A stretch of 64,000 nucleotides of DNA from Zygnema cylindricum (lineage: Eukaryota; Streptophyta; Zygnematophyceae; Zygnematales; Zygnemataceae): contig JBBHKE010001194.1 in the NCBI GenBank assembly GCA_037447655.1, positions 1 through 64,000 of the forward strand, written 5' to 3'. Under the pieces are notes generated by a model. The model was not told where the DNA came from. It saw only the letters and a program-made list of their open reading frames with translations, and ran no database searches. The translations under genes and the position numbers were made by a program. Shown in pieces: positions 1 through 40,400 of the stretch. Numbering within the stretch: position 1 is the first letter of the stretch; every line of letters begins with the position of its first letter.

Positions 1-2447
1 AGGATCATCTCTTCCTACATTGTAAAAATCCTGCAAATATGCCCAACCCCTACCATAAAAGTGAGACAAAGAGGACTCCTTCTCATTCGATGCTTACTGT
101 CAGTCCTCGTCTAGTTTATATGCAGTTTTTAGTGGGAACTTCAAAGTAGCCATTGCGGGAAGGCTAGCAAGCAGTTCATAACTCATGAATGGAAGCAGAT
201 TTTCGATCAATATTTTATTTGGTGACAGATTGTCAATCAAATGTCTTATCTGGAAACAGATTGTTAATCACATGTAGATAACGGTATGATCTAGCATTAG
301 GATAATTTTTCATCGCTAATCATTCTGGTAAATTTCTGAAACCACCTGTTTCCACCTTTCTTTTCACAACTGCTTTTACTTTATAAAGCCGACAACTGAG
401 CCATAGTTAGGATAACAGTATTGCTGGAGGCAGATTGACATCCTGATAGCTTAGTACCACCTCTAATATGTTTCCTTTTAGGGCAAAGGAGAAAAACGCC
501 ACCTGAGGTGTCTGTACAAAGGCCAGCTTTTTCCTCAGCTCCCACCCATCTTTACTGGGCTTGAAAAAATGTCCCATAACCCTGTCCAAAAAATCTGGCC
601 TGGGAATCATATCACAATCAAAGACTACTACAAAGTCTCCTTGTCTCTGTCCCATTTTCCTTCCCTTCAAAAGCTGGCTGTTAATGTTCCCAGCTTTGGC
701 ATGGTGAGATACTCCAGGCACCTGCAATCCCCAAAAACTCATTCAATTCCTCGTATCATGACCTTCATAAGGACCATAAACCGAATCCAGACATGAGCTC
801 CCGATTTCCCTCGAATCCTTTCAAAAGACCATTCTCAGGCGTTCAAAGGATAAGATGGTTCCAATACAAAAATCGCCATGATAAAATGCTAAAACTTGTG
901 TCAACATGTTTTTTTTTTTGCTCATTTTTTACCGACCTCTGCAACCTCTCAAGACTGTTGTTTCCACATTAGGGAACCTTCCCACCTTAGTCCTGGCTGA
1001 ATAGTGAAGATCCGCCCAGCCTTGACCGTAACGTCCCGATTTTGTTAAGAGCATTTCTTTTTGCATTATTTTGCACATATCTTTCACCCTTTTTCGATTT
1101 CCATCATCTAAGACATATACTTGTAGTTTTGCTGGTGGGTACCTGTTCATGTGGTAATTTGATATTAGCCTTTGTTAATGTCACATCCTTCTCTTTCCAG
1201 CCAGAATCATTGTGTTGGTGTCAATAGCAACTAAAGTTCGACAAGTAACTTTGACCCAAAGGTCAAATAATTTTCTCCAGGTCATGGTTATTATAAGCAG
1301 TATCAGTTACGTTCATTCCTTGGACTTCTCTGCACTTCGCTGGGTGCTTTAAATCTTATATTCTCTAAATTTTACATCGCTCATCGCTATAAGTGTTAAA
1401 CATGTTTGAGGCAGTCGAAGTAAAGCTTTCTCACAATTTTCTTTCTTTAAATCGTGACATTACGACCAAAAGGTAAAAGCGTTGCTATTCAATTGCTTGA
1501 CTCAGAAAAACATCAAAAAGTTGAGCACAATGTAAAATGGCTTTGACTGCCCGAGAAATGTTGAACACTAATAGCTATGGGCTGTGTACAACAGCCATCA
1601 TTGTTGTTGCTTTACAAGAAAAAGGAATTGATTTGCTATCGAAGTCCTCAGGTGGTTAAACTGGCACTATAAATAGACTAAACCCATCACTAGTATGGAT
1701 GAGAAAGTAGTATGGTCCATGCCAAAACGTGTACACAAAAAAGGGGTCTATGTAGATGCTTGTCCTCCACAAACTTTAGAGCTCAAAATGAATGCGGTCC
1801 ATACTAATTCATTTGTAGATGTTGAATTTATGGTGATACTTGAAATTACATGCCCTTCGTTATTAGAGTTAATATCACTAGTTCAATCGCAACTTTTTTG
1901 AGCCGAGAGTCGTAAAATAGTGTTACTAACACTATGTAAGGGAGTGGACAACAATCGCCCTCATTCTAAATCGGCATTTGCACTAATATATCCTTTAGAC
2001 TAATAGCGATGGGCAGGGTAATGCAATCTTCAACAAAACCAAAAAGAATGATTACAAAATTAATGAGGGAACGTGTACTCACATCATGTTCAGCACAGCA
2101 CAGACTGTGGCTTCAATAATGGGGATTGGTTCATCATAACAGACCACGTAAACGTCCACAGAGGGAAAATCATCGGCTAAGAGGCACATTAACTGAAGAG
2201 AGCGTGGGTCACGCTCAACCGGCTTCCATATTTCCATACAAAAGAAGAACGAAGGAATAAATGTCGCAAGCTCGGAAAGATAGAAGATCAGACTGAATAT
2301 TATATGTTCGTGGTTAAGACTGAAGCGTGCACGCCATACGAAGTAAACCATTCCGGCTACCTGTGTATCCGTTTCCAGTACCCAGTGTTTAATAATGGTC
2401 AGTTGAAATATCAGCAAAAATATCAAAACAAAGACAAAATACAAATG
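1..2447 (-). other. Exons for membrane segments and BcsA/CesA-like GT2 domain (partial)
   Basis: Exon 2083-2447 has two hydrophobic segments (VFVLIFLLIFQLTI and IIFSLIFYLSELATFI) around VYFVWRARFSLN, then VDVYVVCYDEP, the usual start of the GT2 fold. Exon 986-1142 gives YPPAKLQVYVLDDG, with the first catalytic Asp motif (DDG). It joins in phase to exon 503-723, VPGVSHHAKAGNIN (substrate-binding KAGN) and DFVVVFDCDMIPRPDF (the DxD motif that binds UDP-sugar and metal). That exon ends VQTPQ and joins exon 1-30, DFYNVGRDDP. The TED and QxxRW motifs expected next lie outside the window. All motifs seen are intact. The product (glucan, mannan or xylan) cannot be told from these motifs. Confidence 0.9.
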
Positions 2448-5400
2448 CTTTAAACTTCACTCATGGAGTCCTTTAGAACAGCAGTTTTTTCTATCTCTTA
2501 ACAACAAAAAAACACAAAACACTTGTGCTTAAGACTTCATTCGTCAACTCCTTTAAATCAGCTCAATTCATAGTCTCTTACAACCAAGAATAACTTAATT
2601 AGTTGTACAAAAATGTGTTATCTGTAGACAGGAACAAGCATAAATAAGGATCTCTAATTGAGTCCCACCTGACAAACGACTGCGAAGAACCGCCAGGTGT
2701 ATGTCCCCTCTTTCAAGCGAGCCCCGTGTGTCCCAAGTCCATAGTTTACACGACCAATATATGTCTCCATGTCCTCTTCAACTTTGGGCTCCTTTCCCAA
2801 CAACGGAGCCGTTAAAGGCAGTGTAGAAGTGACTGAAAGCGCGTCCAACTGGTCTCCACCACTTTCCATCTCGGATACACCATATGCTCGGCTTGCTTTA
2901 ATTAAGGTCGAGGCAAGTTCTATATGGCCATTTTCCAAGGCTAAGTCTCCCGGTGTAGCATTCTGTCGCATGCAGAGAGGAGAACATAGGCACTAGTTTA
3001 ACATTCGCAATTAAGCTTACAGTCATAATTGTAGAAGTTGTGAGGCCAATGCTATTGCATGGCGAAGCTATTAATGTTGACAAATATATAGCATGGGTCT
3101 ATTTAGGTCCGATCAACAGATTCCAAAAATTATTAGTATTACTAACAGTGTTCTATATTCAATGGCCAGAAAAAAACGGCATCGAATTTGTGTTATTAAC
3201 GCATTAGAGGTCCAAGATGTATCGGTCTGACTTCCTGCCTCAAGAAGGCATTTGCATTTCCAAAAATGCACGTACCTGAAAATTTTTCAGGCAAGGATTG
3301 GCACCGAATCGCAGTAGAATTTGTGCCACATCAGCGAAACCATTCACAGCTGCATAATGCAGCGCTGTGTCATTCCAATTTTCTTGTTTCTTGCATTGGA
3401 AATCAGCCCCATGGGATAGAAGCCATTTCACAGAAGCTACCTGGAAGAAGAAAAAAAGCGTCGAAACAAGCCATGGCCCATTTTTTGTTTAAATGAAAGA
3501 AATTACAATTCAATCATTCATGTAATAGTACACTGCCCGTAGCTTTTTAAGGAGTTATTTGTGTAAATGTGAAATGCAAATGTATAACACTAATTTAGTG
3601 TAGTGGCGAATTGTAGTCCACTCCCATATTATCGACACTCTTTTGTGATTTTTGGTCAAAAAAATGTTGCGACTCGAATTAGTGTTATTAAAATTGGTTG
3701 AGGTGGGGAGTGTAGCTCCTTTAATGTATTCCACAATACATCAAAGAATTTACACTACGGTGGTCATTAGTGAAGACCACCATCTTTTGCCCAATGGAAA
3801 TTTGTTAACCTGTGTTCACGCGATTTGAATATCCTTAATGGGGTCTAAGGAAGATAATTGTGTTCTTTACCATAAAGTATTATTGCAACATGTTGACATC
3901 CAGGGTGTGAAGGGCACCTGGTTTTGAATGACTGCAGAATGCAGTGCGGTAAAACCTGCAAATCCCATATTGATATCAAAACCCTTCATTTTCGATATCT
4001 CCTCCATTACAGCGATGTTACCCTGCAAACATCCCCAGTTTATAAAGCACATTATTCGGACAACCCCGTTTTATAAGGCACACTATTCTATTAGCGAACT
4101 AAGTTAGACTGGTCAGTTGTATGACAGTCTTATGACATTCTTATGTCTTACACCATTAGTGTTGGTTGCGTTTTCAAGTTTTTTCTATTTCATTTAACAG
4201 CCGTGCAAACCAATGTTGATATAAGTTTCATGTTTCTCTTACGTGCTGCATTTTTAGGGTAGGGAATTTAGACATGAGGATGTCGATGGGAATGAGGATA
4301 GTCACCGATTATCTACATTAGGACCAACTAAAAGGTGGTCAGCGGGTGCTTTGGGTCTCCCTCGCCCACCAAAAAAAAAACCACTCTTCCACCTCCCTCT
4401 CCCCCCAAACAACAACAGCAACTCTCTCTCCCCACACCCTTTCCACTCTCTCCAGCCACCCTTTCCTCTCTCTCCTCCCACCCCTTCCTCTCTCTCCTCC
4501 CACCTCGGCTGCTGCAAAACGGAATGCTCCTTTAGTATTCTCACTCATCTGTCCCCATGCCAATGCTTGACGACAAATTATGACGTAGAAGGAGATAAGC
4601 AGGAGGAGGAAGATGACCACAGAAAGGGTGATTTCACCCGCGTATAAAACCAATAACGAGGGTGTTAATGGGGCAAAAGCTTGAGAACTGTTCCGTACAG
4701 CCTCTACTCTTACAATAGGAGATCGTACTGTACACAAATTGGACCTGCTAGACCCAGTCCAAAAGCAACCGGAGATATACCGCCCATGGCTATTAGATTA
4801 AGTGCATAATTAGCGTTAATACCGTATCTATTAGATTTAGTGAATTATTAGCGTTAGTACCATAGTAGTATTAACTTCATCAGATTATGTTTGGGGACGT
4901 GGCTCATTGTGGTTTTATAAACACTAATTTATGATTTTTGGACAAAAAACAATGAGTAATTCTTATAGCAATGGGCAGAGTAGTTCACTAAAACCTTCAA
5001 ATAAAGCCTTCAAATACTAGGGCGATAATGTTTCTTCCTATCCTTGCAACTTCATAGCATTGTGACTGACAAAATACATGAGAAGTAGGTGAGCAATTTA
5101 ATTTACATCTCCGTTCTTTGTAAACTTTTTAGTAACTCCAAGCCAATGGAACTGATGGCACTGCATGAATAGCCCTTACCTGTTGTGGGAATTTTTTTGA
5201 AGGCGGCGGACAAAAGCACTATAATAAAGTGTGCCTTTCTGCCAAGTGGGATCCTTCAGTTCCGTGAAGATTATGCTAATATTCATCAAATTTGTTTCTT
5301 TCTTTGTCAAAATAGTTGAACCCGAGCCGAAGAGCTTATCTGGAATGCCATCCTCGTTGACACTGCAATCCTCCTTAGCCCGAGAATTATATATCATCAC

Positions 5401-8067
5401 ATCCAAATCAAACAAAAACACATGATGTGTCTTAAAAATGGAAAGGAAATGGGAGTAGCCGGCGATACTGGTTGTCTACTGGGCCAAGAATGCTCACCTA
5501 TATATTTCCACACCAATTTCTGCTGGGTAGAGTTGAGATGGGACGCCAACCGTAACTGTGACTCTCTGGTTACCTGCATCACATGGAAAATCAAACTTCA
5601 GGAAATTCCGTCCCGTCATCTTCCATATTATCGATCTTTTTCCTGACAGTTGAAACTTTTCAAATCAATTGACAGTTATACGTCAGTGAATATGTTTTAC
5701 AAAGTCTCCACTACACTGCCAATCTCTATTAGAATTAATCACTCGAGTAGATTTTTGACAAGAAATCATAAATTAGTGTTAAAAGCAGTAATTAGTTAAG
5801 CAAACCGTAGTACCATGTGGCAAACACAATCTAGTGTTGTTAAATTTTAATCAAGTAATAACTCTAATAAATCACCAACTCTAATAGTGACGGGTCCTGC
5901 TCGAGATCTTCACATGAATGTAGGAAACAACAAAGCATGAAATAGTCACATGATAGGCAGTCACATACTGATTATTGTAATGGACTTAGGAGCCAAAGTA
6001 GCATCCACCAGCTGTTCATTTCTGTGGTAGTCACTCAACACTTTCCAGTAGTGATGCCCATTGTCAAGGACCTGCCACACAAAGGGCATAATTCAGCAAT
6101 GTAAGGAGGAAGAGGAAGAGGAGGAGGAGGGGGAGGAGGAGGAGGAGGAGGAGGAGGAGGAGGAGGAGGAGGAGGAGGAGGAGGAGAAGGAGTTATATGC
6201 CTTCGCCATCTCAACACTCATTTCTAACACATTTGTTCTAAGAAATTATGGTCACCGAAGATTTTACTTTAGAAAACCACCGTCCATCCTCCTCTACGTC
6301 CTTTCTCCCTGTTTTTACTACCCTCTGAAGACCTGTCCTCTCCTCCAGAGGGAGGTAGGGTGCTGATAAAACCCAGAGACCAGAAGCGAAATGTCCATAA
6401 TTTGGAGGATGAACTTTGTCCATTGCTTACAACATTATTTCGCTCAAATTCACACCACGTTGAACTTGCAAAACTGGAAGTCAACAATTTTGACCATCTT
6501 GAATTGCTCGAAATGAGCACTATTCTGTATTTATTCTGTTTTCTAGATACCCTTACTACTAGCCACATTGCTACTTCTCCTCCCTACCCGCTTCTTCATA
6601 TAAAAAACGAAGTAAAACTGCACATTTATAAAGTTGAGTAGGACCAAAAGAAATAAATGTAATAGTAATAGTAATAAAAATTAACCTTAATTTGTCAGAT
6701 TTGGTCCGAGTGAGACTGTTAATTGTTCGCTTTACCTGAAAATCTTGGTTGACGACCTCGAGAATTTTGGTAGAGGTGATGGTCTCCGCCAACAAGTCCT
6801 TGTTTAGCTCCTCCTGTTAACAGCAAGAGTAATTTAGATGTCAAAATCAGTTTTCAAAGAAGCTTGTCTATAAAACTTGATTTTTTTCTCTCTCTCTCTA
6901 CCCCTTCAAATCCCTCATCCACTTGGTCCTCCTTTGAACTAAACAGAGTTAAAAATCAGTCCTTGTTTTGCTTGGCTCATAAAAGCTTTCTCCAAACTAG
7001 TCAAGAGGACCTATCCACAATTATTTCTACCAATTTTAGATATGTAATTGACTCCCAAATCCAACAAATCCATTTCCTTTTTGCAATGGCTAAAAAAAGT
7101 TTTTTGGGCAGTTTTAAAAAAGGTAGTCGTTCCAACATCAGGATCCAGAATCCCTCTTCCTCCTACAACTTTCTAAAATTACAGACAGTAAAGACCTATT
7201 TACTTCCATGCGATTTACAAAGAAAACCACAAATAACTTCTCCCAGCTTTTATAGAAACATGTGTGGCCCTTGCTTCCTCCAACCTCCTAAAGTGCATTA
7301 CCTTGCCAAGGTTGATTAGGGAGGGAAATTAATTACAAAATCCCAAGGATGACTTATATTAGTTTATACAATAACCAGGCGGTAAAAGAAAAATTTCACT
7401 CCCATTCAAAGCACAGAAAATCCCAAGGATGATTTGTTAGTTAATACAACAACCAGGCGGTAAATAGAATTTTACCTCCAATTTGCGCTCTTCAGAAAAT
7501 ACCACCATTTTAAGACGTGGTAGCAATTTTGTCACGTCCTCAACAACGGACTTATCAACTCCTGCGTTGAATAGCTGCAAAAGTGGCATCAAATTTGAGT
7601 CTCATTGACAGAATCTTTGTTTTTCAAGGTAGACTCGTGATCTTTGTATTGAGGATTCTTGAATTCCTTATCCCTGATTGAAAGGTCCTTGAATTGAAGA
7701 TCCTCAAATTAATGATTCTTGAATTGATGATCCTTGAATTGGTTTTCTTGAACTGCTGACCTTCAGAATTGGTAGACGAAAAATATTGAACAGCTTGAAT
7801 TTTAAAAAATATGCATAAAGGCTCAGGCACGCAAGTTATGAAGTCTTAACAGATAAGGAGGCCTGGACAAAATTTCTTGCCTCATCTGTGGGCTTCTATC
7901 AGTCGGGTCAAAGAAAAGAACTAGATAATGCAACTAACTGACTATCAGCTCCAATCCATACACTAATATTTAGTACTTAATATGTTAAAAAAAGATGTTG
8001 TGACACCTTCAAGAATAAGCTCAAAAAAAAAAACAAATAAATAAATCTTCTTGGTACATTACATTAC

Positions 8068-8153
<86 letters not shown>

Positions 8154-11086
8154 CTCATTACATTTTAGTATAGCATAGTATTATATAGTTATATTACATA
8201 ATTACTAAAAGATTGTACTTCCTTAATACATTATCTTCCTACCCTCAGCTAACAAAAAGCCTCCACATAATATTCGAGTCACATACTCATGTAATAACAA
8301 AGTACATCACAGACATTTTGCAACCAATGCCGAAGCCGGTTTCTGAAACAGATTCACAGCAGTATGAAAAGGTAAATTAAAAATGTCATGCGATAAATCT
8401 AGAGAATAGATAGTGATTGTTTTTTTCACCTGAGTTGACAAAGTAGGTTTTATTCCTTTTTTCCATGTTGAAGGTACCTCAGGAATTACAAGAGGTTTCA
8501 TGTGAACTGTGTCATTACAGAACATTGCATAGAAATCCGGAATAACTGTCTCATTGCCATTTTTCCCGTTATAATTGCCCCTGATCTGCAACCATACAGC
8601 CACATCATGTGAATTAAAAAAAAAACCCTTCACATAAATCACCACCAAATAACACGGGTTAAAGTTTTAGTCTTTTTAAGTTTAGTCCGCCATGAATCGC
8701 CATCATCATAAAAAAAAAACTGCCACTTAAATCTTCTTTAACTATACACGTGCCGGATTACTAATCTAGCGGTTGCAATGGAAAGGTGGAATCCTCACCT
8801 TCCGAAAGGCAGTAGCCAAACGGACATGGACACCTGTGTCTGGAGAAAGTTTAATTTAAGTGGCGAAAAAACATTGCCTCTAATAGAGGTTCTCTGTGTA
8901 CCTTAAAACCAAATTTCTTAAGATATAGTTTAGCATGTTACAACCACATCTTTCAAGAATCAGAACTCAATTGTGTATAATGATTTCCATCTCCACGAAT
9001 CTTCTAACAATTATTATAATGAGTCCCTGTAAAATTGCTCCACCGTATAACACACCTCAAATTCTTAAAGGACAATGGTATCCTTGTCTCATTACATAGG
9101 AGGAGAAAATACATACCCGATCCCAAAAGGAGTTTGGATCTGGAATCTCGTTAGTGCCCTCGGTTGTATTATGGTCCCATTGGTTTATAGTCATGCCCAC
9201 CCAATCCACCACATTGTCCCCAGGATAATAGGGCGTGTACATATCATCCTCCATTGTCAACTCTCCATCTTTATTTGTATCCAAAATGTTGAAATCTGGA
9301 CATGACGATTTCGTACATACATGGAATCCGGAGAACGGATAACCTCCGCCGTTGTTGGGAGCCCATACCATAACTGTCCGACATGTGAAAGATCGTACAA
9401 ATCCGGCTAACAAACGAAACTTCTCCTTGTAAAGAGTTGGTTTCTGGCCCCAAGGGTACCTACACAACAGTCCAAAGTTAATTAAGTAAAAACGACAAAA
9501 TGAAAAAAAATAGAAAAAACAATCGAACTACCACTGGTCTGAAAATCTACACATCCATACTATTATAGTACTTCCTTTTCGATCACTTTCATGCATTTCT
9601 TCTCCTACAAAGCAAACTCTCCTACTGCCAATAGTCATGCTGTCGCATGGTCAAAACACATTTTTTTTATTTTTTTTAAGTTTGATTTAAAAAAAACTTG
9701 GCGTTAAACTATTTGAGTACATGGATGGAAAAAAGTGCAAAATGAAAGTGAAAAATGTCACACAAGTTCAAACAACAAAAGGCCAATAACATTCCGAACT
9801 CAAGACGGAAAACGACAACCAAATAAAAACTAACACAAGCTAAAACAAAAAGTCAAAAACTAACAAAAGCTATCAAACCAACTCTCTGCATAACTAAACT
9901 CCATAAAAAGGGGGCACATTTTAACACGATATTTTCAATATTATTATAATTCTCACCATCCACCATTCATCTCATGTCCAAACCGAAGAAAGAATGAAAC
10001 ACCCATAGTTTCATATGGTGAAATGAAATCCACGAGTTCACGGCATTCCCGTTCCCTAACAAATTCGAGACCAATGTAAGGATCTAAAGTGAGCATCAAA
10101 ATGCCACCAACATGTGTAACCTGCAACCATCAGGCTCCATTCAAAAATGTCAAAAACCAGCTCCTTCTCTTGTCTCTATTTGCGGCACGATGACAATGAT
10201 TTACTTATAATTGATTTACAGGATCAGCGATTTGTCCTTTTCTATCTATTTTTGCAAATTTAACCGAGTAAACTTGCAAATGGAAAACCACACTAAAACT
10301 TTAAGCAGCAGAATGACAACGATTTATAAGATAATAATGCTGCATTGGTTTATATAATATCGACTGAAAAAATAATAATCCTCCTAATGATAGCAATGTG
10401 GTAACCATGAGGGACTTGTAATATGCCAGAGAACAAAAAAAAAAAAAAAAAAATAATAAATTGTGTAAAGCAAAAAATGAACAAATCATTAATCTTCCTT
10501 CCATTTTGGTTTCAACAAAGAGCTACATTCCTTTAAATTTTGCCAAAAACGATAAAAAAGTCACCCTTACCTGCTTCAAAATAAGTATAATTGATTTTTT
10601 GTCTTCCGCAGTCAAAGGAAAACGACAAAATACTCCAACAGTTGTCGGTTTAAAGCCGATCAAATCAGAATATTTCTCCAAAGAAACAGAATTGTCGTAT
10701 ACGACACCGACATATGCTCCTTCAATAGGCTCCAGAAGCTCTCTTTTCACGATTTCTTCAGACACAGCTAAAATAGCTGAACTGTACTTTTCTATTGTAC
10801 TTTTCTGCTCATTTTGTGGCTCATTTACAGTGATTATTTCCTTTTTTACGCTCATTTCCTCTTCCAATAAGCTCACAGTATTCACTATTTTTACTGCATT
10901 TGATCTTATCACATACAGAGTAAGAATAGTAACTAGTAGTAGCTCAGCCATGGCAGCCATGGCTGGCCAATACTGCAGGTGTAAAGGTAAAGTGGTAAAT
11001 AAGGACTTCGTAAGCGCCTTGAATACTGCAACACTGTCAGTCACTAACATTTGCATACGGCACTTTATGTTCACTCCAGAAATCAC
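1..11086 (-). CDS. GH26 - ankyrin - BcsA/CesA-like GT2 fusion protein, multi-exon, 3' end outside window
   Basis: I joined exons by GT/AG signals and codon phase: 10571-11086, 9957-10120, 9117-9459, 8478-8585, (unresolved), 7476-7574, 6736-6813, 5965-6071, 5498-5635, 5180-5467, 4504-4744, 3918-4022, 3276-3440, 2669-2962, 2083-2447, 986-1142, 503-723 and 1-30. Except across the 7575-8477 gap, each joint keeps the frame. Domains in order: N-terminal anchor, GH26, beta-rich segment, transmembrane helix, ankyrin repeats, membrane segments, GT2. Known of the families: GH26 enzymes hydrolyse beta-mannan or beta-1,3-xylan, and BcsA/CesA-type GT2 proteins make and export beta-glycans. I infer a plasma-membrane or Golgi wall-polysaccharide enzyme that both synthesises and trims. 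The start is ambiguous between ATG at 11086 and ATG at 10961; the second puts the hydrophobic stretch right at the N-terminus. Two adjacent genes wrongly joined is possible but unlikely, since splice phase runs straight across domain borders. Confidence 0.8.
1640..2025. mobile_element. MITE-like remnant in an intron
   Basis: The right end (around 2003-2021) reads CTAATAGCGATGGGCAGGGTA, close to the terminal repeat of the MITE family described at 11243-11443, and 1567-1592 carries another end-like copy. The left boundary is unclear, so this is an approximate call inside the intron between GT2 exons 986-1142 and 2083-2447. Confidence 0.35.
2669..4744 (-). other. Exons for transmembrane helix and ankyrin repeats
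   Basis: Exon 4504-4744 encodes a strong transmembrane segment (ITLSVVIFLLLLISFYVII) and ends in FRFAAAE, which joins GNIAVMEEIS from exon 3918-4022 (35 codons). Exon 3276-3440 (55 codons) continues with VKWLLSHGADFQ, TALHYAAVNGFADVAQILLRFGANP; exon 2669-2962 adds TPGDLALENGHIELASTLI. The TALHxA, LLxxGA and A..NGH patterns identify three to four ankyrin repeats. The tail of the last exon is acidic and low-complexity and leads into the next membrane segment. If the GH26 domain is outside, this helix returns the chain to the cytosol, so the repeats would face the cytosol next to the synthase, where they could bind a partner or regulator. Confidence 0.85.
4778..4982. mobile_element. MITE copy in an intron
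   Basis: The left end reads TACCGCCCATGGCTATTAG and the right end is its near reverse complement (TATAGCAATGGGC followed by AGAGTA). Length is about 205 bp, like other copies, and the inside is AT-rich with no reading frame. It lies just upstream of the acceptor of exon 4504-4744. Confidence 0.55.
5712..5896. mobile_element. MITE copy in an intron
   Basis: The left end TACACTGCCAATCTCTATTAG-like sequence and a right end containing CTCTAATAGTGACGGG are decayed versions of the same terminal inverted repeat. It fills much of the intron between exons 5498-5635 and 5965-6071. Confidence 0.45.
6098..6190 (+). repeat. GGA/GAG trinucleotide repeat
   Basis: About 30 near-perfect GAG/GGA units in the intron upstream of exon 5965-6071. 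On the minus strand it is a pyrimidine tract near the acceptor. Apparent poly-Glu or poly-Pro frames here are products of the repeat. Confidence 0.95.
7338..7472 (+). repeat. Tandem ~60-bp duplication touching a splice donor
   Basis: Two copies share TCCCAAGGATGA and AACCAGGCGGTAAA with the sequence between them conserved. The second copy runs up to the donor of exon 7476-7574, so the duplication arose in or next to the splice site. Confidence 0.7.
7635..7775 (+). repeat. Degenerate short tandem repeat, TTGAATTGATGATCC-like
   Basis: About six to seven imperfect units of 18-22 bp containing TTGAAT and GATNCTTGAATT. Intronic and without coding content. Confidence 0.6.
8067..8151. repeat. TA microsatellite
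   Basis: A run of about 42 TA dinucleotides in the intron that should contain the unresolved GH26 exon. A long alternating tract such as this can extrude as a cruciform and is prone to length change. Confidence 0.97.
8478..11086 (-). other. Exons for N-terminal anchor and GH26 catalytic domain
   Basis: Exon 10571-11086 holds a hydrophobic stretch (AELLLVTILTLYVI) followed by the GH26 start (GAYVGVVYDN). Exon 9957-10120 carries FLRFGHEMNGGW, whose His-Glu-Met-Asn is the GH26 acid/base signature. The Trp codon is split by the intron and joins YPWGQKP in exon 9117-9459, which continues with MVWAPN and YYPGDNVVDWVG, all typical of GH26. Exon 8478-8585 ends KPLVIPE, where Glu matches the GH26 nucleophile. 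Both catalytic glutamates are therefore present and the domain should be active. A longer alternative for this last exon ends at a second in-frame donor near 8434. A single N-terminal signal anchor would put this domain on the lumenal or extracellular side. Mannanase or beta-1,3-xylanase specificity cannot be decided here. Confidence 0.85.
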
Positions 11087-12811: not shown

Positions 12812-13187
12812 CTTCCCCGCTACGCGACAGCATTAACTATGTACCTCCAGATTTACACTACGTCGTCTTTTCCTCCGCTACGCGACAACATTTACTCCCC
12901 TTAACTATGTACCTCCGAATCTACACTATGTCGTCTTTTCCTCCACTACGCGACAACATTTACTTCCCATTAACTATGTACCTCCGAATCTACACTATGT
13001 CGTCTTTTCCTCCACTACGCGACAACATTTACTTCCCATTAACTATGTACCTCCGAATCTACACTATGTCGTCTTTTCCTCCACTACGCGACAACATTTA
13101 CTTCCCATTAACTATGTACCTCCGAATCTACACTATGTCGTCTTTTCCTCCACTACGCGACAGCATCTACTCCCCATAACTATGTAC
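12812..13187 (+). repeat. 69-bp minisatellite, about five units
   Basis: Units contain ACTATGTACCTCCGAATCTA, then TTTTCCTCC and CTACGCGACAACATTTAC. Central units are almost identical; the first and last are diverged. As 69 is a multiple of three, one plus-strand frame stays open for 90 codons as a repeated 23-residue peptide. I regard that as a consequence of the period rather than a gene. Confidence 0.93.
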
Positions 13188-13434
13188 CTTCGAATCTGGC
13201 CTGCGGCCGCTGCCAATCGCACTCACATTAAAAAAAACCACAGGTGTGATCCCCCTAAATCATTACTAGCTCCCTCTCCCCCCTCCCCATGAATCGCTTG
13301 ACTCCCCATCCCCCCATATAGAGAGTTCCAACAATCATACGCACAAAACGTGCGCTCACACACACACATACACAATCACTCGAAAAAAAATATATAAAAA
13401 AACTAAATAAATAAATAAAATACAAGCAAACATT

Positions 13435-13777: not shown

Positions 13778-13849
13778 TGATCCGGCCAGGATTTGAACCT
13801 GTGACCTTTCACTTTAGCTGCGAACGCACTACCACTGTGCCACCATCTC
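13778..13849 (-). ncRNA. tRNA-like sequence, probably pseudogene or SINE head
   Basis: On the minus strand the spacing is exactly that of a tRNA: perfect 4-bp D stem (GCAC/GTGC) with loop AGTGGTA, 5-bp anticodon stem (TTCGC/GTGAA, one G-U), 7-nt loop AGCTAAA, 5-nt variable loop, T arm with GGTTCAAATCC (B box), and a 7-bp acceptor. The acceptor stem has two mismatches and the T stem one. Position 33 is G, not the universal U, so this is unlikely to be a working tRNA. The triplet in the anticodon place is CTA. A tRNA-derived SINE head is the likeliest reading; no clear SINE body or tail was seen. Confidence 0.6.
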
Positions 13850-29424: not shown

Positions 29425-30578
29425 TTCTAGGGTGAAATAGAAAAAAAACGTAGAAAGTTTACCTCCAAACTCCTCTCTCTAACCCCCACAATTGTCGTAG
29501 TCATTAAAGGCTAGAGAGGGAGCTAGAGTCATGGCTGCCTAAGCTGCATAGAGAGACACGTAGTAGAATCTAGGTAGATTTACCAAAAGGTATTTGACGG
29601 ACCCAGGATTTGATCCTGCTACCAACCGTCCGTCAAATCACCCTTAGTCGTAAGCCTTATCCTATAGACTAAGATCAATACAAAGATGAATGGGAATTGA
29701 TAAGTATTTAAACATGTACAATGGCATAAATTCATTTAACAACGCGAAGAGACATGCAACATAGACACATTTTAAATGTATGTATGACGTACGGTACTTC
29801 ACTAAATGAATACCGCGCATTTGTTTCGACAACAAAACAAATACCGCGCATTGATTTTTGATGGTTGGATTTAAAAGCCGATCTTGATCGAACGGCCGCG
29901 ATAGATGCCGAGATCGCGGAGTGGGCGTTTTGGCAGTTTTCGGTCATCACCACGTTAAATGACACATGGCACAATCATATTGGATTGCGACAATTCCGGA
30001 GATTACGGGAACAAATCCGAATATGACACGTGTCAAATTTTTGGCCATGTCGTACGATGGTCGTACAGAAAGTACACCGACACTTGTACTTTTCTGTACA
30101 ACACAGTATTGGGATTGGTGCTGTACGTCAGTAGATAGGTAGTTTAGAGAGAGATAGGACTTAGAAAATTTAGTAGGTAGGCACCTCTCTCCGAGAGAGC
30201 TCTTGTACAAAAGGTCATCATTGACCACTCATAACTTACTGCTCAGGGAGAAAATTCAGAGATTCTTTTTGCTGCGGACACAAGGGAGTCCAGGCTACAC
30301 AATGGTGAAGTTGGTCAAAGTCTTTGCCTGCCAGGGTGGCTGCATTTTTAAGGGAAAGTCAAAGTGCGTGAATGTGTCCAAAACTCATTTCTAGCTTTGC
30401 ATTCTGTGATGGAACTGAGCACACAAAAAGTCTTATTTCAGAAGGGTTAAGTTGTATTGGGGTTCTGATTGTCAAGAGTTAAGTCATTTGGGTTTGTATC
30501 AACTTGGATTCGGCACTAACTAGATAAGCTTATTTGGATATGCGAATTCTGTGGGGGAATGGACGGTATGGAGTTTCA
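29425..30578 (+). repeat. 5' LTR of element 2, right part
   Basis: Continues the LTR begun at 22922-22987. It carries a tRNA-like box B in antisense (GGATCAAATCC), palindrome 1 with arms around 29829-29850, and palindrome 2 at 30060-30107. It ends GAGTTTCA, with the gag ATG at 30559, exactly 20 nt before the end. The primer site that follows is AGTAATGGGCCCACC, with two changes from element 1. Confidence 0.85.
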
Positions 30579-31402
30579 AGTAATGGGCCCACCATCTAAG
30601 GTGCCTATGTTTGATGGAACAGACTTCTCTTATTCAGAATTTATGATGGAGGGATTGCTTTTCGAAAAGCACTTATGGGGAATTGTTTCAGGACAAGTGA
30701 GGTGTCCGCCACCGGCTTCGGTGGAGCTCACCATGGAGATTCATTTGGCGCTTCCAAGAAAAACCAACCAGAGTTCAGATGCAACGCAAGGTGAAGGGAA
30801 AATAATTTCCATGGAAGGGAGAATAGGGGAGAAGGGTAGAGGAACACCGATGGTGAGGGGAGCTAGGCTCTCGGCTACAGTTCCACCTGTTGGGGGTATA
30901 ACTAAACCAAAAACCAAAGAAAATGATAGTAAAATTTGGGAGTATAAAAACACTATAGAAAAACATCTCATATTTAGAAACGTGTCTAAGTCTATAGTTA
31001 TCACTCTTATAGCATTAGCCAAATCATCTAAAATTTGGGAAGCACTAATTAAGACTTATAACAGTGAAACTATTCAGAGGCAACAATAAGTAAAATAGGA
31101 AATAGAAGCCTATGTTTATAAAGGCGATAGCATGATAAAGTTTTGCAATGATATTGCAATGTTATATGTTGAGCTTGTTAGTCTAGGATATTTAGAATCT
31201 GAGGAGAGAAAGATTAACACACTAATTATGAAACTCCCAGAAGAGTACAAAAACATCCTTAACCGTATGAAGGAAAAGGATGGCTCCTCATGGACTTGGA
31301 GCATTACCATTGGGATGATTCTTGTGAGAGAAAACACTTTAGAGCTTTGTAGGGGAAGTAACAGGGTGAATGCACTAACGGGTGGTGGTGACTGGCGGAA
31401 GC
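30559..31402 (+). pseudogene. Element 2 gag, first part
   Basis: Encodes MDGMEFQVMGPPSKVPMFDG and about 175 further residues, then two nearby stops (TAA at 31087 and TAG at 31096, at Leu and Gln positions in element 4), then an open continuation to the element B insertion. Homologous along its length to the intact gag of element 4. The second part resumes at 35655. Confidence 0.85.
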
Positions 31403-34400
31403 TGTTGAAATTCAAGTATTTTCTAGGTCTAGAGATTGTAAAATAAAAAGCAAAGAGGAGACATTGACAGCCTACCTCTAACTCTTCACTCAAGTCCCCA
31501 CACTTGTCCCAGTCACTAAAGACTTGAGGAAGAGTTAGATTCATGGTTGCCTAGGCTGTCCAAAGAGGACAGGGAGGCAAACCTTGATAGAGTTACCTAA
31601 AAGATTTTGACTGATTCAAGATTTGATCTGAGTACCCACCGTCTATCTAACTAGCCGTTAACCTTAACCGTTTAGTCTAAAACTAGTGTTAATGATATAT
31701 GGTTTAATAATTATATAAAGACTCATACGTAGACTAATTCATTCAACTGAAACTTCATTCGGGATGCATAGATTCAGTTATGTAGAGTACTGAGTACGGT
31801 ACGGAGAAGAAATAGATACCGCGCATTTTGTTTCGATAGCGAAACAAATACCGCGCAGGTATTTATGACGGCTACGATTGAAATCTAGTTTTGATCAAAG
31901 GGCCGTGAAGGATACCGAGATCGCGGAAGAGCGGTTTGCGATCATTGCCATATCGAGTGACACGTGGCGCGATAACATTAGATTGCGGCGACTCCGGACA
32001 TTATGGGAACAAATCTCGATTTGACACGTGTCGACATTTTGGCCATGTTGTACAATGGCCGTACAAAAAGTACATCACTAAATGTACTTTCTTGTACGAC
32101 ACAGTAATTTGATTGGCGTCGTACATCAATAGATAGAATTTTAGAGAGAGAATAGGACTTAGAAAATTAAGTAGGTGGCAGCCTCTCTCTGAGAGAGCTC
32201 CTGTACAAAAGGTCATCTTTGACCATTCATAACTATCAATTTACTTGACCATTTTCAGTGATTCTTTTTGCTGCGGACTCAGGGGAGTCCAAGCTACAGA
32301 GTGGTGTAGTCGGTCAGATTTTTTGCCTGCCAATGTGGCTGCATTAATAAGAGAAAGTCAAAGTGGGTGAATGTGTCCAAAACTGATATTCTAACTTTGC
32401 ATTCTGTGGTGGAACTGAGCACACAGAAAGTCTTATTTCACAGGGGTGAAGCTATAATAGGTTTGTGATTGTCAAGGGGTCAGTCATTTGGGTTTATATC
32501 AACTTGGAGTCGGCACTATTTAGATTTGCTTCTTTTGGATCTGCGATTTCTATGGGCAATGGAGCACACAGAGTTTCAGGTTCTGGGCCCACCATCCAGG
32601 GTGCCTATGTTTGATGGAACATGCTTCATTTATTGGGGATTTATGATGGAGGGGTTTCTTTTCGAGAAGCACTTATGGGGAATTGTTTCGGGACAAGTGA
32701 GGTGTCCTCTAGGGCTTTGGAGGAAATCACTATGGAGAATCATCTGGGGTTACCGAGAAAATCAATCGGAGTTCAGATGCAAAGGAAGGTGAAGGGAAAA
32801 TCATTGCCATGGAAAGGGGAAAATGGGAGAAAGGAAAAGGAACACTGATGGTGAGGGGAGCTAAGCTCTTGACTATGGTTCCACTTGTGGGGATTAAAAC
32901 CAAAGAAAACGACAAAAAAATATGGGAATACAAAAACACTATAGCAAAGCATCTCACACTTAGAAACGTGTCTAAGTCCATAGCTATCACTCTTGTAAAC
33001 TTAATGAAGTCTTTAGAGATATGGGAAGCACTAAGTCAGATTTATAAGAGTGAGACTATTCAGAGGCAGCAATTAGTAAAGCAATAAATAGATGCCTATA
33101 TTTATAAAGGCGGTAGCCTGATAGAGTTTTGCAATGATATTGCTGCGCTATATGTTGAGCTTGCTAGTGCGGGATATGTAGAATCTGAGGAGAGGAAGAT
33201 TAATACACTACTTATGAAACTCCCAGATGAGTACGAAAACATCATTTGTCGTATGCAGGCAATGGATGGCTCCTCATGGACTTGGAGCTTTATGATGGGG
33301 ATAATTCTTCTGAGGGAAAGCACTTTGGAGCTTCATAGGGGAAGTGACAGGGTGAATGCATTTACAGTTGGTGGTGATTGGCGGAAGCGTGATGAGAGGA
33401 ACATCGGTGAAGAGCGGAAGCGTGATGAGAGGAAGAAAGACAAAAGTAAACCTTAACGGAACTTTGGTAGAAAGAGAGGGAGAGGAAAAGAAACGATAGC
33501 TTTGAAGAAGGGTGTTTGCTTCTTTTGTAGGGAACAGGGTCAGAGGAATGCCCTTGTTTGGAAGAAATTAGAAGTTGGAATGTGGATGAGAACGAAGAAG
33601 GGGAAGAGGAGAAAGATGATGAAGATATGTTGGAGCTTCTCCGCGCTGGTAGTATGGGGAAGAGAGAAAAGCACACAGAAATTCCACGTAAGCAACAGTG
33701 TACTTTTAGAGGTATAAGGGAAGTAAAAAGAGAGGAGATACTTGAGGGAGTTCAAAATATTGAGGACAGGTTCATAGATATTTTGGAAACTGAAAACTGG
33801 TCGGAAAGGGAGACTTCAACGGATTCCGAGGAAAGGGGGGAAGTGAAACTAGAAGGGGTTCTAAAGGATAGGGGAGAAGAGGAATATATGATTATAGACT
33901 TAGGGGAGGATAAATATTTTTTGGGAGTAAGAATAGAAAGCGATAGTGGAAAGAATTACATGGGAGAGAGTGAGGTAAATTCAGTAAATGAGATAATTAT
34001 CATGGATGACAATATGAGTTCGGAAGATGTAGATTTCATGAGGAACTTAGTGAGGACTAGTGATTTTTGGGAATATTTGACGGGGGGTGGATTTGACATC
34101 TCTACTTGGTGTGATGTCACTTGTGAAGATGTGCCTGTAAAAGGGTTATCATCCGGGTGTGTGTTGCACATTGGAGATGGGGCTGACTGTTGGACATCCA
34201 AAAGGGAAAGTGGATTTTGGTTGGATGAAATGGGGAGGAGGTGGATAAAATATTTGCTTGGGTTTTTGAAAAGTGGCATGCAAAATAAAATGTATGATCG
34301 ACACGATGAAATTATTTTTGGTCATCTAATACACTTTCTTAAATATAAAGGTTTTCGCTTGAAGCTTCATAAAGGAAAAAGGGAAAAGGAAAGGAAAATA

Positions 34401-35654
34401 TATATATATATATATATTTGTTGTTTTTGATGGGAGTTGAAAGTAAAGTAGACTAGAAAATAAAGGGAGTGTTGAAATTCAAGTATTTTCTACGGCTAGA
34501 GATTGTAAAATAAAAAGCAAAGAGGAGACACTAACAGCCTGCCTCTAACTCTTCACTCAAGTCCCCACACTTGTCGCAGTCACAAAAGACTTGAGGAAGA
34601 GTTAGATCCATGGCTGCCTAGGCTGTCCAAAGAGGACCGAAAGGCAAACCTTGATAGAGTTACCTAAAACATTTTGACATATACAAGATTTGATCCGAGT
34701 ACCTACCGTCTGTCTAACTAGCCGTTAGCCTTAACCGTTTTGTCTAAGACTAGTGTTGAATGATATAGGGTTTAATAATTATATAAACACTCACACGTAG
34801 ACTAATTCATTCAACTAAAACTTCATTCGGGATGCATAGATTCAGTTATGTAGAGTACGGAGTACGGTACGGAGAAGAAACAGATACCGCGCATTTTTTT
34901 TCAATAGCGAAACAAATACCGCGCAAGTATTTATGACGGCTACGATTGAAATCTAGTTTTGATCGGACAACCGCGAAGTATGCCGAGATCGCGAAAGAGA
35001 ATCGCGGCAGTTTGCGATCATCGCCACATTGAGTGACACGTGGCGCGATAACATTGGATTGCGGCGACTCCGGACATTACGGGAAAAAATTCCGATATTA
35101 CACGTGTCGACATTTTGGCCATGTTGTACGATGGCCGTACAGAAAGTACATCGGTACCTATACTTTTCTGTACGACATAGTAATTTGATTGGTGCCGTAT
35201 ATCAAAAGATAGAGTTTAAGAGAGAGAATAGGTTTTAGAAAATTAAGTAGGTAGCAACCTCTCTCCGAGAGAGCTCCTGTACAAAAGGTCATCTTTGACC
35301 ATTCATGACTATCAATTTACTTGACCATTTTCAGTGATTCTATTTGCTGCGGACTCAGGGGAGTCCAAGCTACACAGTGGTGTAGTTGGTCAAAGTTTTT
35401 GCTTGCCAAGGTGGCTGCATTTATAAGGGAAAGTCAAAGTGGGTGAATGTGTCCAAAACTCATATTCTAACTTTGCATTCTGTGGTGGAACTGAGCACAC
35501 AGAAAGTCTTATTTCACAGGGTTGAAGCTATAATAGGTTTGTGATTGTTAAGGGGTCAGTCATTTGGGTTTATATCAGCTTGGAGTCAACACTATTTAGA
35601 TTAGCTTCTTTTGGATCTGCGATTTATGTGGGCAACGGAGCACACAGAGTTTCA
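31403..35654 (+). mobile_element. Copia element B, internally deleted non-autonomous element
   Basis: 4252 bp, LTRs 31403-32578 and 34471-35654, target duplication GAAGC (31398-31402 and 35655-35659) in the gag of element 2. Starts TGTTGAAATTCAAG and ends GAGTTTCA; polypurine tract AATAAAGGGAG before the 3' LTR. There is no integrase or reverse transcriptase. Confidence 0.93.
32559..34430 (+). pseudogene. Element B gag and residual RNase H-side segment
   Basis: Gag begins MEHTEFQVLGPPSRVPMFDG (ATG 20 nt before the LTR end) and is broken by a frameshift near 32710, a TAA at 33085 where element 4 has Glu, a TAA at 33453 where element 4 has Tyr, and a deletion in the CCHC knuckle (CFFCREQGQ then shifted). 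The open segment 33558-34430 holds an acidic stretch and then a piece related to the end of pol in element 1: DDNMSSEDVDFM, FDISTWCDVTCEDVPVKG and GCVLHIGDGADCW match the RNase H domain. Everything between protease and RNase H has been lost. Confidence 0.85.
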
Positions 35655-36671
35655 GAAGCGTGAAGAGTGGAATGATGGTGACTCGCGGAAGCTTGATGAG
35701 AGGAAGAAATACAAAGATAAACCTTATCGGAACTTTAGTGGAAAAAGAGGGAGAGGAAAAAGGAGGGGAGCTTTGAAAGCAGTGGTTTGCTTATTTTGTA
35801 GGGAATGGGGTCAATATATGGAAGAATGTCCTTGTTTGGAAGAAATTAGAAGTTGGAATGTGGATGAGGAGGAAGAAGGGGAAGAGGAGAATCAGGATGA
35901 AGATATTTCGGAGCTTCTTTGCATCGATAGTATGGGGAAGAGAGAAAAACACACAGAAATTCCACGAAAGCAACAATGTACTTTTGGAGGTATAAGGGAA
36001 GTAAAGAGAAAAGAGGTACTTGAGGGAGTTAAGTATGTTGAACAGGTCAAGGAGTGTAGGGTAAATGACTTAGAAATGAGAAAGTCAAATCTAGAATTAA
36101 AATATGAATAAGGGAAAAATCACTATATTGAGGATACTTTCATAGATATTTTGGCGACAAAAAACTGGTCGAAAGAGGAAACTTCAACGGATTCCATGGA
36201 AAGGGGAGAAGTAAATCTAGAGGGGGCTCCAAAGGATAGGGGAGAAGATGAACTTTTAATGAGAGGTTTAGGGGAGAAGAAATATTTTTTGAGGATAAAA
36301 ATGAAAAGTGGTAGTGAAAATACTTACATGGATCTGAAAGGGGGAAATGGGGAGAAATCAGAAAAATGGGTAGTTATCATAAATAATCATTTAAGTGAAG
36401 AAGATGTAGGAGTTATGAAAACTTTAATAGGGACTAGTGGTTTTTGGGAAAATTTGGGGGAGGGTGGATTTGACATCACTTCATGGTGTAATGTCGCTTA
36501 TGAAGATGTGCTTCTAAAAGGGCTATCATCTAGTTATGTGTTGCAGATTGGGGATGGGACTAGCTGTTAGAACTGCAAGAGGGGGATAAGATTTTGTGTG
36601 GATGACAAAGAGATGAGGTGGATAAAATCTCTTATTCGATTTATGAAAAGTGGACTAGAAAATAAGGTGAG
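35655..36671 (+). pseudogene. Element 2 gag, second part, and pol remnant
   Basis: Resumes after element B with basic residues (KLDERKKYKDKPYRN), a damaged knuckle (CLFCREWGQYMEECPC: His replaced by Gln), an acidic run, then the pol remnant (NHLSEEDVGVMKTL, FDITSWCNVAYEDV, LQIGDG). Stops at 36108 and 36568 break it. A purine tract precedes the 3' LTR. Confidence 0.8.
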
Positions 36672-37440: not shown

Positions 37441-40400
37441 TGAAACTCTGAGACCTCCATTGGCCCTCAGAGTATGCAGACCCAAAAGAAGCTAATCTAG
37501 ATAGTGCCGACTCCAAGTTAATATAAACCCAAGTGACTGACCCCTTGACAGTCAAAACCCCAATATAGATTCACCCCTGTGAAATAACACTTTATGTGTG
37601 CTCAGTTCCACCACAGAATGCAAAGTTAGAATATGAGATTTGGACACATTCACCCACTTTGACTTTCCCTTATAAATACAGCCACCGTGGCAGACAAAAA
37701 ACTCTGACCAACTACACCCCTGTGTAGCCTGGACTCCCCTGAGTCCGCAGCAAAAAGAATCACTGAAAATGGTCAAATAAATTAATAGTTATGGCTGCCC
37801 AAAGTTTGCCATTTATACAGGGTGCACTCTGGGAGAGGCAGCTGCCTACCCAAAATTTATCTAAGTCCTATTCCCTCTCTAAAACTCTATCTACTGAAGT
37901 ACGGCACCAATCAAATTACTGTATCGTACATAAAAGTACAGGTGCCGGTGTACTTTCTGTACGACAATCGTACGATATGGCTGAAATGTCAACACATGTC
38001 ATATATCTATTTGTTCCCGTAATCTCCGGTGTCGCCGCAATCCAATGTTGACGTGCCATGTGTCATCCTATGTGGCGATGACCGCAAACCGCCAAAAGTA
38101 CATATCCCGCGATCGCGGCGCTTATCGTGGCCGTCCGATTAAATCCGGCTATATTGCTAGCCGTTGAAAATAGACACGCGGTATTTGTTTCGCGGTCGAA
38201 CCAAATGCGCGGTATCCGTTTCAATTAATAAATCTGTACTCCGTACTATACATAACTGTATCTATGCAATACGTATATATTTCCAGTTAAATGAACTAGT
38301 CTATGTGTAATTATCTAAATAATTATCAAACCTCATACGTCGTAATACCAACTCCAGTCTAAATGGATAAAGTTACCGGTTAATGTTGAATTGACGAATG
38401 GAAGGTACCAGGTTCAATTCCTGGGTCCGTCAAATACCTTTTTGGTAAGTATTACTAATTTACCCCTTGTCTTCTCTAGAGAGCTTAGGCAGCCATGGCT
38501 CTAGCTCCCTATCCAGCCTTCAGTGACTACAACAAGTGTGGGGGCTTGGAGAGGGGAGTTAGAGGCAGACTGCCTCTGCCCTTTTTCTATCCTATTACAG
38601 ACCTAGAAAATACACAAATATCAACACTCCCCTTATTTTCTAGTCTTTTTCCCTTTCAACTTCCACAAAAAAAATAGACAAACACCCCCTCCTCTTTTTC
38701 TTTTTCTTTTTCCTTTTTCCTTTATTTTCCATAAAACTTAAGTATTTAACACAGTGCATTAAATGATCTGAAATAACAATTGCATCACACATCTTATTTA
38801 ACATCCCACTTTTCATAAATCCGAGCAAAGATGTTATCCACCTCATCACACACAAACCGATTTCTCTCTTGCGATCCAAACAGCCAGCCCCATCTCCAAT
38901 CTGCAACATACACCCAGATGCTAACCCTTTTACAGGCACATCTTCACAAGTGACGTCACACCAAGTAGTGATGTCAAATCCATCCACCCCCAAATATTCC
39001 CAAAAAACACTAGTCCCCACTAAGTTCCTCATAAGATCTACATCTTTCGTACTCATATTTTTATCCATGATAATTACCCCATTTTCTGAACTTCCCTCAC
39101 GCTCTCCCATGGAATTCTTTCCACTATTACTTTCTCATTTAATTCCCAATAAATATTTCTTCTCCCCTAAACCTTTAATCAAATATTTCTCTTCTCCCCT
39201 ATCCTTTGAAACCTCTTCGAGTTTCACTTCTCCCCTTTCCTCGGAATCCGTTGAAGTCTCCCTTTCCGACCAGTTTTCTGGTTCCCTATTATCTATAAAA
39301 TTATCCTGATTAATTTTATCTTTCCCGTTTTCACTTATGGATCCTAGAATTGACTTTCTCATTTCTAAGTCATACACTCTACACTCCTCGACATCCTCAA
39401 GTACCTCCTCCCTCTTTACTTCCCTTATACCTCCAAAAGCACACTGTTGCCTTCGTGCAATTACTGTGTGCTTTTCTTTCTTCCCCATACTACTAATCCG
39501 GAGAAGCTCTAAAATATCTTCATCCTCTTTCTCCTCTTCCCCTTCTTCCTCCTCATCCACATTCCAACTTCTAAGTTTTTCCAAACAAGGGCATTCCTCC
39601 ATATAATGACCCGGTTCCCTACAAAAGAAGCAAACCCCTTTTTTCAAAGCTCCCGTGCCTTTTCCTCTCCCTCTCTTTCCACCAAAGTTCCGATAAGGTT
39701 TACCTTTGTCTTTCTTTCTCTCATCAAGCTTCCGCTCGTCACCACCGTTCTTCTCATCACGCTTCCGCCCGTCACCGCCGTTCCTCTCCTCACGCTTCCG
39801 CCAATCACCACCAGCTGAAAATGCATTGACCCTGTCCTTTCCCCTACGAAGCTCCAAAGTGCTTTCCCTCACAAGAATTATCCCCATGGTAAAGCTCCAA
39901 GTCCATGAGGAGCCATCGATTGCCTGCATACGACAAATTATGTTTTCGTACTCATCTGGGAGTTTCATAATTAGTGTATTAATCTTACTCTCCTCAGATT
40001 CTACATATCCCGCACTAGTAAGCTCAACATATAACGCAGCAATATCATTGCAAAACTCTATCATGCTACCGCCTTTATAAACGTAGGCATCTATTTCCTG
40101 TTTTACTAATTGCTGCCTCTGAATAGTCTCACTCTTATAAATCTGAGTTAGTGCTTCCCATATCTCTGAAGACTTGGTTAGACTTAAAAGAGTGATAGCT
40201 ATCGACTTAGACACATATCTAAGTATGAGATGTTTTGCTATAGTGTTTTTGTATTCCCCTATTTTCCTGTCATTTTCTTCAGTTTTAATCCCTACATGTG
40301 GTACCATAGCTGAGAGCCTAGCTCCCCTCACCATAGGTGTCCCTTTTTCCTTCTCCCCTATTTCCCCATCCACGGAAAGGTTTTTCCCTTCACCTTCCGT

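Follow-up and report, generated by a model that had tools for sequence, protein, structure and literature searches.

Cellulose-type synthases work with a separate endoglucanase, BcsZ (a GH8 enzyme) in bacteria and KORRIGAN in plants, and to our knowledge the reason why they need one is unsettled. A gene at one end of the 64,000-base stretch of Zygnema cylindricum DNA analysed here (the window) bears on this question: its exons carry a GH26 hydrolase domain, ankyrin repeats and a synthase of the GT2 family, and an earlier note on this DNA proposed that synthesis and trimming are fused here in one polypeptide. Is the chain of exons one gene, and does its hydrolase part still cut? Comparison with relatives and with further loci of the genome makes it likely that the gene encodes a functional green-algal ankyrin–GT2 synthase with an outer GH26 domain of bacterial type, that this domain most likely does not hydrolyse in the window copy, and that it probably cuts in a second form of the gene, found on contigs C2488 and C1155.

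One gene encodes GH26, ankyrin and GT2 domains

The window begins at base 1 of contig C893 and takes in its first 64,000 bases; the genome searched comprises 352.8 Mb in 2689 contigs. On the minus strand, from 10960 to 1, we rebuilt a chain of 17 exons, with GT/AG at 16 of 16 introns and matching phases at all joints. The features of the gene are listed below; C767, C2488 and C1155 are contigs with further copies, and a slash within a motif marks a splice joint.

10571..10960, minus: exon 1, with the likely start ATG (alternative at 11056), a hydrophobic signal or anchor helix and the GH26 start (EGAYVGVVYDN); start and length identical in C767
9957..10120, minus: exon 2, GH26 with the acid/base motif FGHEMNGGW; phase 0 in, 2 out
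9117..9459, minus: exon 3, GH26 middle; the TxYHWG of the family is TINQWD in the window
8430..8585, minus: exon 4, GH26 nucleophile KPLVIPE; the KxxWW of the family is KPTLS in the window
7476..7574, minus: exon 5, GH26; the WFD of the family is FSE in the window
6736..6813, minus: exon 6, GH26 end; the conserved Asp of DW is gone
5180..6071, minus: exons 7–9 (6071-5969, 5573-5498, 5362-5180), predicted extracellular accessory domain
4504..4744, minus: exon 10, predicted transmembrane helix from the outside to the cytosol, then GAFRFAAAE; acceptor cag/GTC conserved
3276..4022, minus: exons 11 and 12 (4022-3918, 3440-3276), ankyrin repeats (Ank_2, 3.4e-16)
2669..2962, minus: exon 13, last ankyrin piece, variable linker and beginning of the GT2 membrane part
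2083..2360, minus: exon 14, membrane helices and beginning of the GT2 fold; corrected from 2083-2447
503..1142, minus: exons 15 and 16 (1142-986, 721-503), GT2 motifs DDG, KAGN, DCD and QTPQ
1..30, minus: exon 17, cut by the contig end (DFYNVGRDDP); longer in C767, C2488 and C1155

The span given in the earlier note reaches 11086, which is no start codon. In-frame ATGs lie at 11056 and 10960, and the second is the most likely start, because C767 gives an identical exon 1 of 390 nucleotides and C2488 and C1155 open with a comparable hydrophobic leader. Read from 11086, the chain has no stop in 1099 codons, and the corrected chain from ATG 10960 has none in 1028 (the 1028-codon counts and the substitution rates below take exon 10 from 4747, one codon above 4744). 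The exon 10 boundary proposed at 4744 also held, its acceptor being conserved in C2488 and C1155. Exon 14 had been drawn too long: its acceptor is at 2360, because P0001 and P0002, two relatives described below, resume at cag/GTAGCC, and the 29 extra residues of the longer version have no counterpart in the aligned P0001, P0002 and P0003. The gene is incomplete, C893 ending inside GT2.

When the joined protein was scanned against Pfam (with exon 14 still uncorrected), all three families scored above cut-off: GH26 (PF02156) barely, at 20.9 bits against a curated cut-off of 20.2, Ank_2 at 60 bits and Cellulose_synt at 26.3 bits against 24.7, with GT2 families at or just over their cut-offs. The motifs named earlier are all present (GHEMNG, KPLVIPE, DDG, KAGN, DCD and QTPQ). 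The GT2 part has its best match among solved structures in BcsA (9.5e-18), and it has DDG and DxD motifs and membrane helices ahead of the GT fold. TED, QxxRW and FxVTxK lie beyond the contig end in the window; they are present in P0001, P0002 and a third relative, P0121, and C767 holds pieces, not joined into a chain, of the remaining GT2 with TED, QRLRW and FxVTxK-type motifs. In the full-length P0001, P0002 and P0121, taken here in place of the truncated window protein, Pfam found ankyrins and no PilZ; GH6 was not found in these three either, the hydrolase module of the window being an N-terminal GH26. By sequence, the solved structure closest to the GH26 part is Endoglucanase H (2cip, 1.5e-07), with mannanases weaker (2whk, 0.00026), a ranking that does not fix the substrate. 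The accessory domain is possibly a beta sandwich. It may share a bacterial origin with the segment that follows GH26 in bacterial proteins, to which its profile matched weakly (hhalign probability 17.9, E 0.0014); a three-row profile of the domain found no further match among 267 proteins.

Three other proteins have the same domain order. P0001 is deposited in EukProt under the name of a Trinity transcript (1725 residues; 50% identity over 91% of the query in the protein search), and P0002 is an assembled protein (1534 residues; 48% identity over 90% of the query); each has its GH26, ankyrin and GT2 parts in a single frame. The third, P0121, came from a profile search and is a gene model of 2015 residues in the order GH26–ankyrin–GT2, whose label jgi/Chlat1 we take to mean Chlorokybus atmophyticus and whose GH26 scores 16.1 bits, below the Pfam cut-off of 20.2. 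A further 38 GH26 matches (P0122 to P0159) have 37-44% identity to P0001 over 20-29% of its length.

The chain also recurs within the genome. C767 carries a close copy: identity is 85 to 93% for most DNA pieces, in introns as well as exons, and all 17 exons agree with the window in length, phase and GT/AG. The second form lies on C2488 and C1155, whose copies are almost the same (dS 0.0097) and, judging by sequence, are either haplotypes or a recent duplicate. Their exon chain is the same, with GT/AG at 15 of 16 introns; the first donor reads CAG/GC where the window and C767 have GT, which would make this either a GC-AG intron or a site replaced by another donor. Apart from exons 1, 4 and 13, exon lengths equal those of the window (exons 1, 10 and 17 were trimmed by homology before this comparison), and exon 4 is 27 nucleotides longer in both contigs than in the window. 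The claim of a single GH26, ankyrin and GT2 gene is borne out by the open 17-exon chain, by P0001, P0002 and P0121, and by the three further loci: the window chain is confirmed as one gene encoding one polypeptide, and is no chance join.

Other matches in the genome are partial. On C147 (L027, G000:C147:45001-55000, ~4992-7361) lies a third GH26 locus, whose partly repeated exon 3 carries a stop; the 20 kb searched there gave no credible match to ankyrin or GT2. C1420 (L029, G000:C1420:146001-155950) holds a third, more diverged GT2 copy that ends at the contig end, and these two loci could not be shown to form one gene. A genome search with P0003 returned no ankyrin–GT2 locus beyond those named, only separate GT2-like and ankyrin-like matches. 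A six-frame Pfam search of the genome for GH26 gave no score (0 of 1), probably because the exons are short.

Two candidate additions to the GH26 chain were rejected. For a missing exon with the KxxWW segment, nothing between 8480 and 6700 fits, the sole TGGTGG (7507) lying inside exon 5 in another frame; no piece seems to be missing between the GH26 exons, because the alignment gives IKPTLSTQ/LFNAG as the homologous stretch. A PETGFG frame near 8342 is out of phase as a GH26 continuation, and the exon 4/5 joint is conserved in the paralogs. Intron 4 contains a pure TA repeat (8069-8151) and intron 6 an AGG/CCT repeat (6104-6192); CCT-type arrays resembling the latter match in C1155 and C1420.

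The window GH26 domain departs from its family

We aligned the window GH26 with 52 homologous domains, leaving out P0172 and P0179 as too distant. At the 50 columns conserved to at least 90%, the window departs seven times, P0121 twice and P0001 and P0002 not at all; six distant GH26 rows depart at least seven times. The window has lost the Tyr of TxYHW (conserved in 49/52), the first Trp of KxxWW (49/52), the Trp (50/52) and Phe (49/52) of WFD and the Asp of DW (49/52), with Tyr replaced by Asn, Trp-Trp by Leu-Ser and Trp-Phe by Phe-Ser. The Tyr of TxYHW and the Trp of WFD are presumably active-site residues of GH26, as we also take the catalytic pair to be the acid/base Glu of HEMNG and the nucleophile Glu. 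The losses are no sequencing error, since C767 has the same ones. C2488 keeps the conserved residues, and so does C1155 except for Val at the Phe; the conserved Tyr and Trp are kept in both, as in P0001, P0002 and P0121, and P0002 has Gln in place of the His before the acid/base Glu. Because the conserved Tyr and Trp are absent from both the window and C767, the window domain is best described as a GH26 fold by descent, and only as a putative GH26 enzyme.

The rates of change vary along the gene. Between the window and C767 there is no gap in 1028 codons. Over all of these the ratio of non-synonymous to synonymous rates (dN/dS) comes to 0.315; GT2 (0.138) and GH26 exons 2-3 (0.148) lie below this value, ankyrin exons 11-13 (0.31) beside it and GH26 exons 4-6 (0.70) above. 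This last stretch differs from the rest of the gene (p=0.022) and from GT2 (p=0.007) in Fisher tests on rounded counts, exons 4-6 having been picked after the losses were seen. Counted only in columns where P0001 and P0002 agree, changes private to the window against those private to C2488 number 16 to 1 in GH26 exons 4-6, 13 to 7 in GH26 exons 2-3, 12 to 5 in exons 7-9, 6 to 2 in exon 10, 2 to 1 in exons 11-12, 5 to 4 in exon 13 and 13 to 5 in GT2. The window gene changes faster throughout, and fastest in GH26 exons 4-6. Together, the site losses, the fast exons 4-6 and the conserved GT2 suggest that hydrolysis was lost in the window copy on a maintained synthase, so that this copy is probably a working synthase carrying an inactive GH26. 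Of the proposal that synthesis and trimming are united in one polypeptide, the fusion stands, and active trimming in the window copy is unsupported and probably wrong, given the lost site aromatics and the weaker constraint on the last third of the domain.

Several observations weigh against an inactive GH26 on a working synthase. The window keeps HEMNG and the two catalytic glutamates, aligned with those of the family, and its exons 2-3 are constrained (dN/dS 0.148), which leaves room for residual or altered activity. The ratio of 0.70 in exons 4-6 is based on 30 changes. The window exceeds C2488 in private changes in 7 of 7 stretches, GT2 included, and part of its speed is therefore gene-wide. 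In the second form, C1155 also has one GH26 site substitution, and the GH26 dN/dS between C2488 and C1155 is 0.98, from only 9 changes. The window also lacks the GT2 end, its last motifs being read across from C767.

If the window copy were itself an active synthase with an active hydrolase trimming its own product, the intact glutamates and HEMNG and the constraint on exons 2-3 would be expected, and C2488, P0001, P0002 and P0121 do keep the tabulated site residues (P0002 with Gln for one His); with Tyr, Trp-Trp, Trp-Phe and Asp lost, in C767 too, and exons 4-6 changing fast, we consider this unlikely. A little less probable still is a re-purposed GH26 with a remodelled subsite, acting on another substrate or by transglycosylation. 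Fixation of the same losses in C767, the constrained exons 2-3 and the retained glutamates fit such a change of function, but exons 4-6 look relaxed between the window and C767 (0.70) and not newly constrained. Early decay of the whole copy as a pseudogene is improbable: the gene is truncated in the assembly and leads C2488 in private changes in all seven stretches, but the truncation is a contig end and no mutation, and 1028 codons without stop, frameshift or broken splice site, with GT2 at 0.138 against C767, argue for a maintained gene. Finally, a GH26 gene wrongly joined to an adjoining ankyrin–GT2 gene, or a misassembly, for which one could cite green-algal ankyrin–GT2 models without GH26 and the C147 locus, where 20 kb gave no credible ankyrin or GT2 partner, is to be regarded as ruled out by the three further loci, where joints and phases repeat in C767 and, except for the first donor, in C2488 and C1155, and by the single-frame P0001 (a transcript) and P0002 and the P0121 gene model of the same order.

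Distribution and origin of the fusion

With the ankyrin–GT2 half as query, 93 proteins were obtained from 7989 scored candidates, among them ankyrin–GT2 proteins of Klebsormidium, Micractinium, Nannochloris, Picochlorum, Scenedesmus and Chlorella sorokiniana. In a GT2 tree of 36 selected rows, some of them without ankyrins in their precomputed domains, the window groups with P0001 (95/86) and then P0002 (100/99), within a clade of 25 rows (99/95) in which every named member is a green alga, cyanobacterial GT2 falling outside. The window protein belongs to the green-algal ankyrin–GT2 family in the sense that it has ankyrins ahead of a GT2 of that clade. GH26 precedes GT2 in 3 of the 24 group proteins examined (P0001, P0002 and P0121) and is absent from the other 21 (P0003, P0005 and P0180 to P0198), absences that rest on deposited and possibly incomplete gene models. 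In the GH26 tree (51 rows, leaving out P0104, P0171, P0173, P0174, P0172 and P0179), six algal rows stand together (94/83) among mostly bacterial-type GH26, and three rows are from chytrids.

The most economical account of these sequences would be that a green-algal ankyrin–GT2 protein gained, on its N-terminal side, a GH26 module of bacterial type. On a single origin of the GH26-bearing proteins the trees differ: P0121 stands beside Klebsormidium in the GT2 tree (96/40), and the presence of GH26 then needs two changes, while the GH26 tree keeps the algal rows together (94/83); loss in Klebsormidium, or more than one fusion event, is possible. As for CESA genes, the accessible text of two papers gives Mesostigma no CESA in one and one CesA in the other, and Chlorokybus three CESA/CSLD-like genes (PMC7027972, PMC6947507).

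A proposed topology and mode of action

The hydrophobic leader would place GH26 and the accessory domain outside, on the lumenal side, and the exon 10 helix, followed by basic residues, would bring the chain into the cytosol. N-glycosylation sequons are more numerous before that helix than after it (window, 5 and 2; P0001, 10 and 3; P0002, 8 and 1); the window has one Arg after the helix and the relatives more basic residues. GH26 outside with ankyrin and GT2 inside is a plausible natural topology because of this helix, the basic residues after it and the denser sequons on the outer side. GT2 would polymerise a beta-glycan from nucleotide sugar in the cytosol and pass it through its own membrane helices, with GH26 sitting at the exit of the chain, and the ankyrins, cytosolic and ahead of GT2, might hold a cytosolic partner. 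In the C2488/C1155 form, the growing chain is probably cut or edited by GH26. The window copy has most likely lost hydrolysis, and its GH26 would be kept, if at all, for chain binding, folding or spacing.

More speculatively, we propose that some green algae have a self-trimming synthase and that this one genome holds forms with an active and a dead GH26, perhaps in one complex in which the dead domain binds or guides the chain and the active one cuts it; we hold this only tentatively. The fusion would naturally put a hydrolase at the exit of a synthase, and a genome with conserved and decayed GH26 versions allows one to ask whether the synthase needs cutting or only binding. The fusion further draws attention to a green-algal enzyme with a GH26 part that is nearly missed by Pfam, the P0121 domain falling below cut-off.

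Comparison with known synthase–hydrolase proteins

The contrast with separate hydrolases drawn in the earlier note is too strong. Tunicate CesA is a GT2–GH6 fusion, according to the available part of PMC6523144, and bacterial GH8–GT2–PilZ and GT2–GH26 proteins exist. In the tunicate protein, GH6 is described as likely without function and lacks an Asp important in the catalytic centre, which many separate GH6-1 proteins keep (available text of PMC6523144 and PMC10334666); ascidian fins and Gh6 are the subject of PMC10986139, as far as its accessible part goes. The tunicate and window proteins are alike in having a synthase and a hydrolase-family domain in one membrane protein, with a parallel between decayed and conserved hydrolases. 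They differ in that the tunicate domain is a GH6, C-terminal after the last helix, with no ankyrins mentioned in the text available, whereas the window GH26 is N-terminal. If the pair of active and dead forms proposed above is real, it would be a second independent case, besides tunicates, of a cellulose-synthase-type enzyme gaining a hydrolase and then losing catalysis.

Closer relatives share other parts of the design. In the green-algal ankyrin–GT2 proteins (Klebsormidium nitens P0003, named 'cellulose synthase catalytic subunit'; Chlorella sorokiniana P0195, 'Cellulose synthase'; and those of Micractinium, Nannochloris and Picochlorum), ankyrins are likewise followed by a GT2 of the same clade, but no GH26 was found by profile in the deposited proteins. 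P0121, P0001 and P0002 share the whole order and differ from the window in keeping the GH26 site residues; in P0121 the accessory stretch, as cut here, is also shorter, and KAGN is missing from the deposited model. GH8 is joined to GT2–PilZ in P0215 (scanned) and in P0224 and P0231 (precomputed domains). P0215, of bacterial type, resembles the window protein in its N-terminal hydrolase followed by helices and a BcsA-type GT2, and differs in having GH8, and PilZ in place of ankyrins. More generally, bacterial BcsA has PilZ, whereas the algal GH26-bearing proteins have ankyrins before GT2. P0172, P0179 and, from a Bacteroidota metagenome-assembled genome, P0236 also combine GT2 and GH26 in one chain; there, however, GT2 comes first, Pfam scans gave no ankyrin family, and GT2 is without the QxxRWA pattern. 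The earlier note knew of no described protein with the order of the window protein: our searches of an open-licence full-text library found no paper describing GH26–ankyrin–GT2, as far as titles, abstracts and accessible text go, but the order is not confined to the window, occurring also in P0001, P0002 and P0121.

Two further sets of proteins came up alongside these. P0165, P0166 and P0168 (P0165 scanned) are cellulose-synthase-type GT2–PilZ proteins with long TPR stretches in one chain of 1575 to 1588 residues. In P0164, P0167 and P0170 a GH26-like domain is joined to a membrane part of OpgC/acyltransferase type; in the scan of P0164, GH26 scored below cut-off, and for the other two the domains are precomputed ones. 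The acid/base position is Gln in P0164 and Asp in P0167.

Other features of the window

The remainder of the window carries retroelement frames, tandem repeats and a tRNA match.

12831-13197: 69-base tandem repeat, 5.3 copies, 95% match, upstream of the gene
13778-13849, minus: tRNA match, 37.8 bits
23990-28363, plus: Copia-type long terminal repeat retroelement; one of its long frames encodes gag, gag-pre-integrase, integrase and SH3-like domains, a second reverse transcriptase
30520-34430 (plus), 35605-36570 (plus), 38640-40631 (minus) and 44896-48458 (plus): further copia-like frames
63719-64000: tandem array of the 8-base unit CCCTCTTC, 35 copies, 97% match, reaching the window end

Of the five copia-like frames scanned, 33531-34427 matched no family and 30520-31086 gave a gag match below cut-off; gag was found in 39138-40631 and 44896-45378, and an SH3-like domain in 47617-48099.

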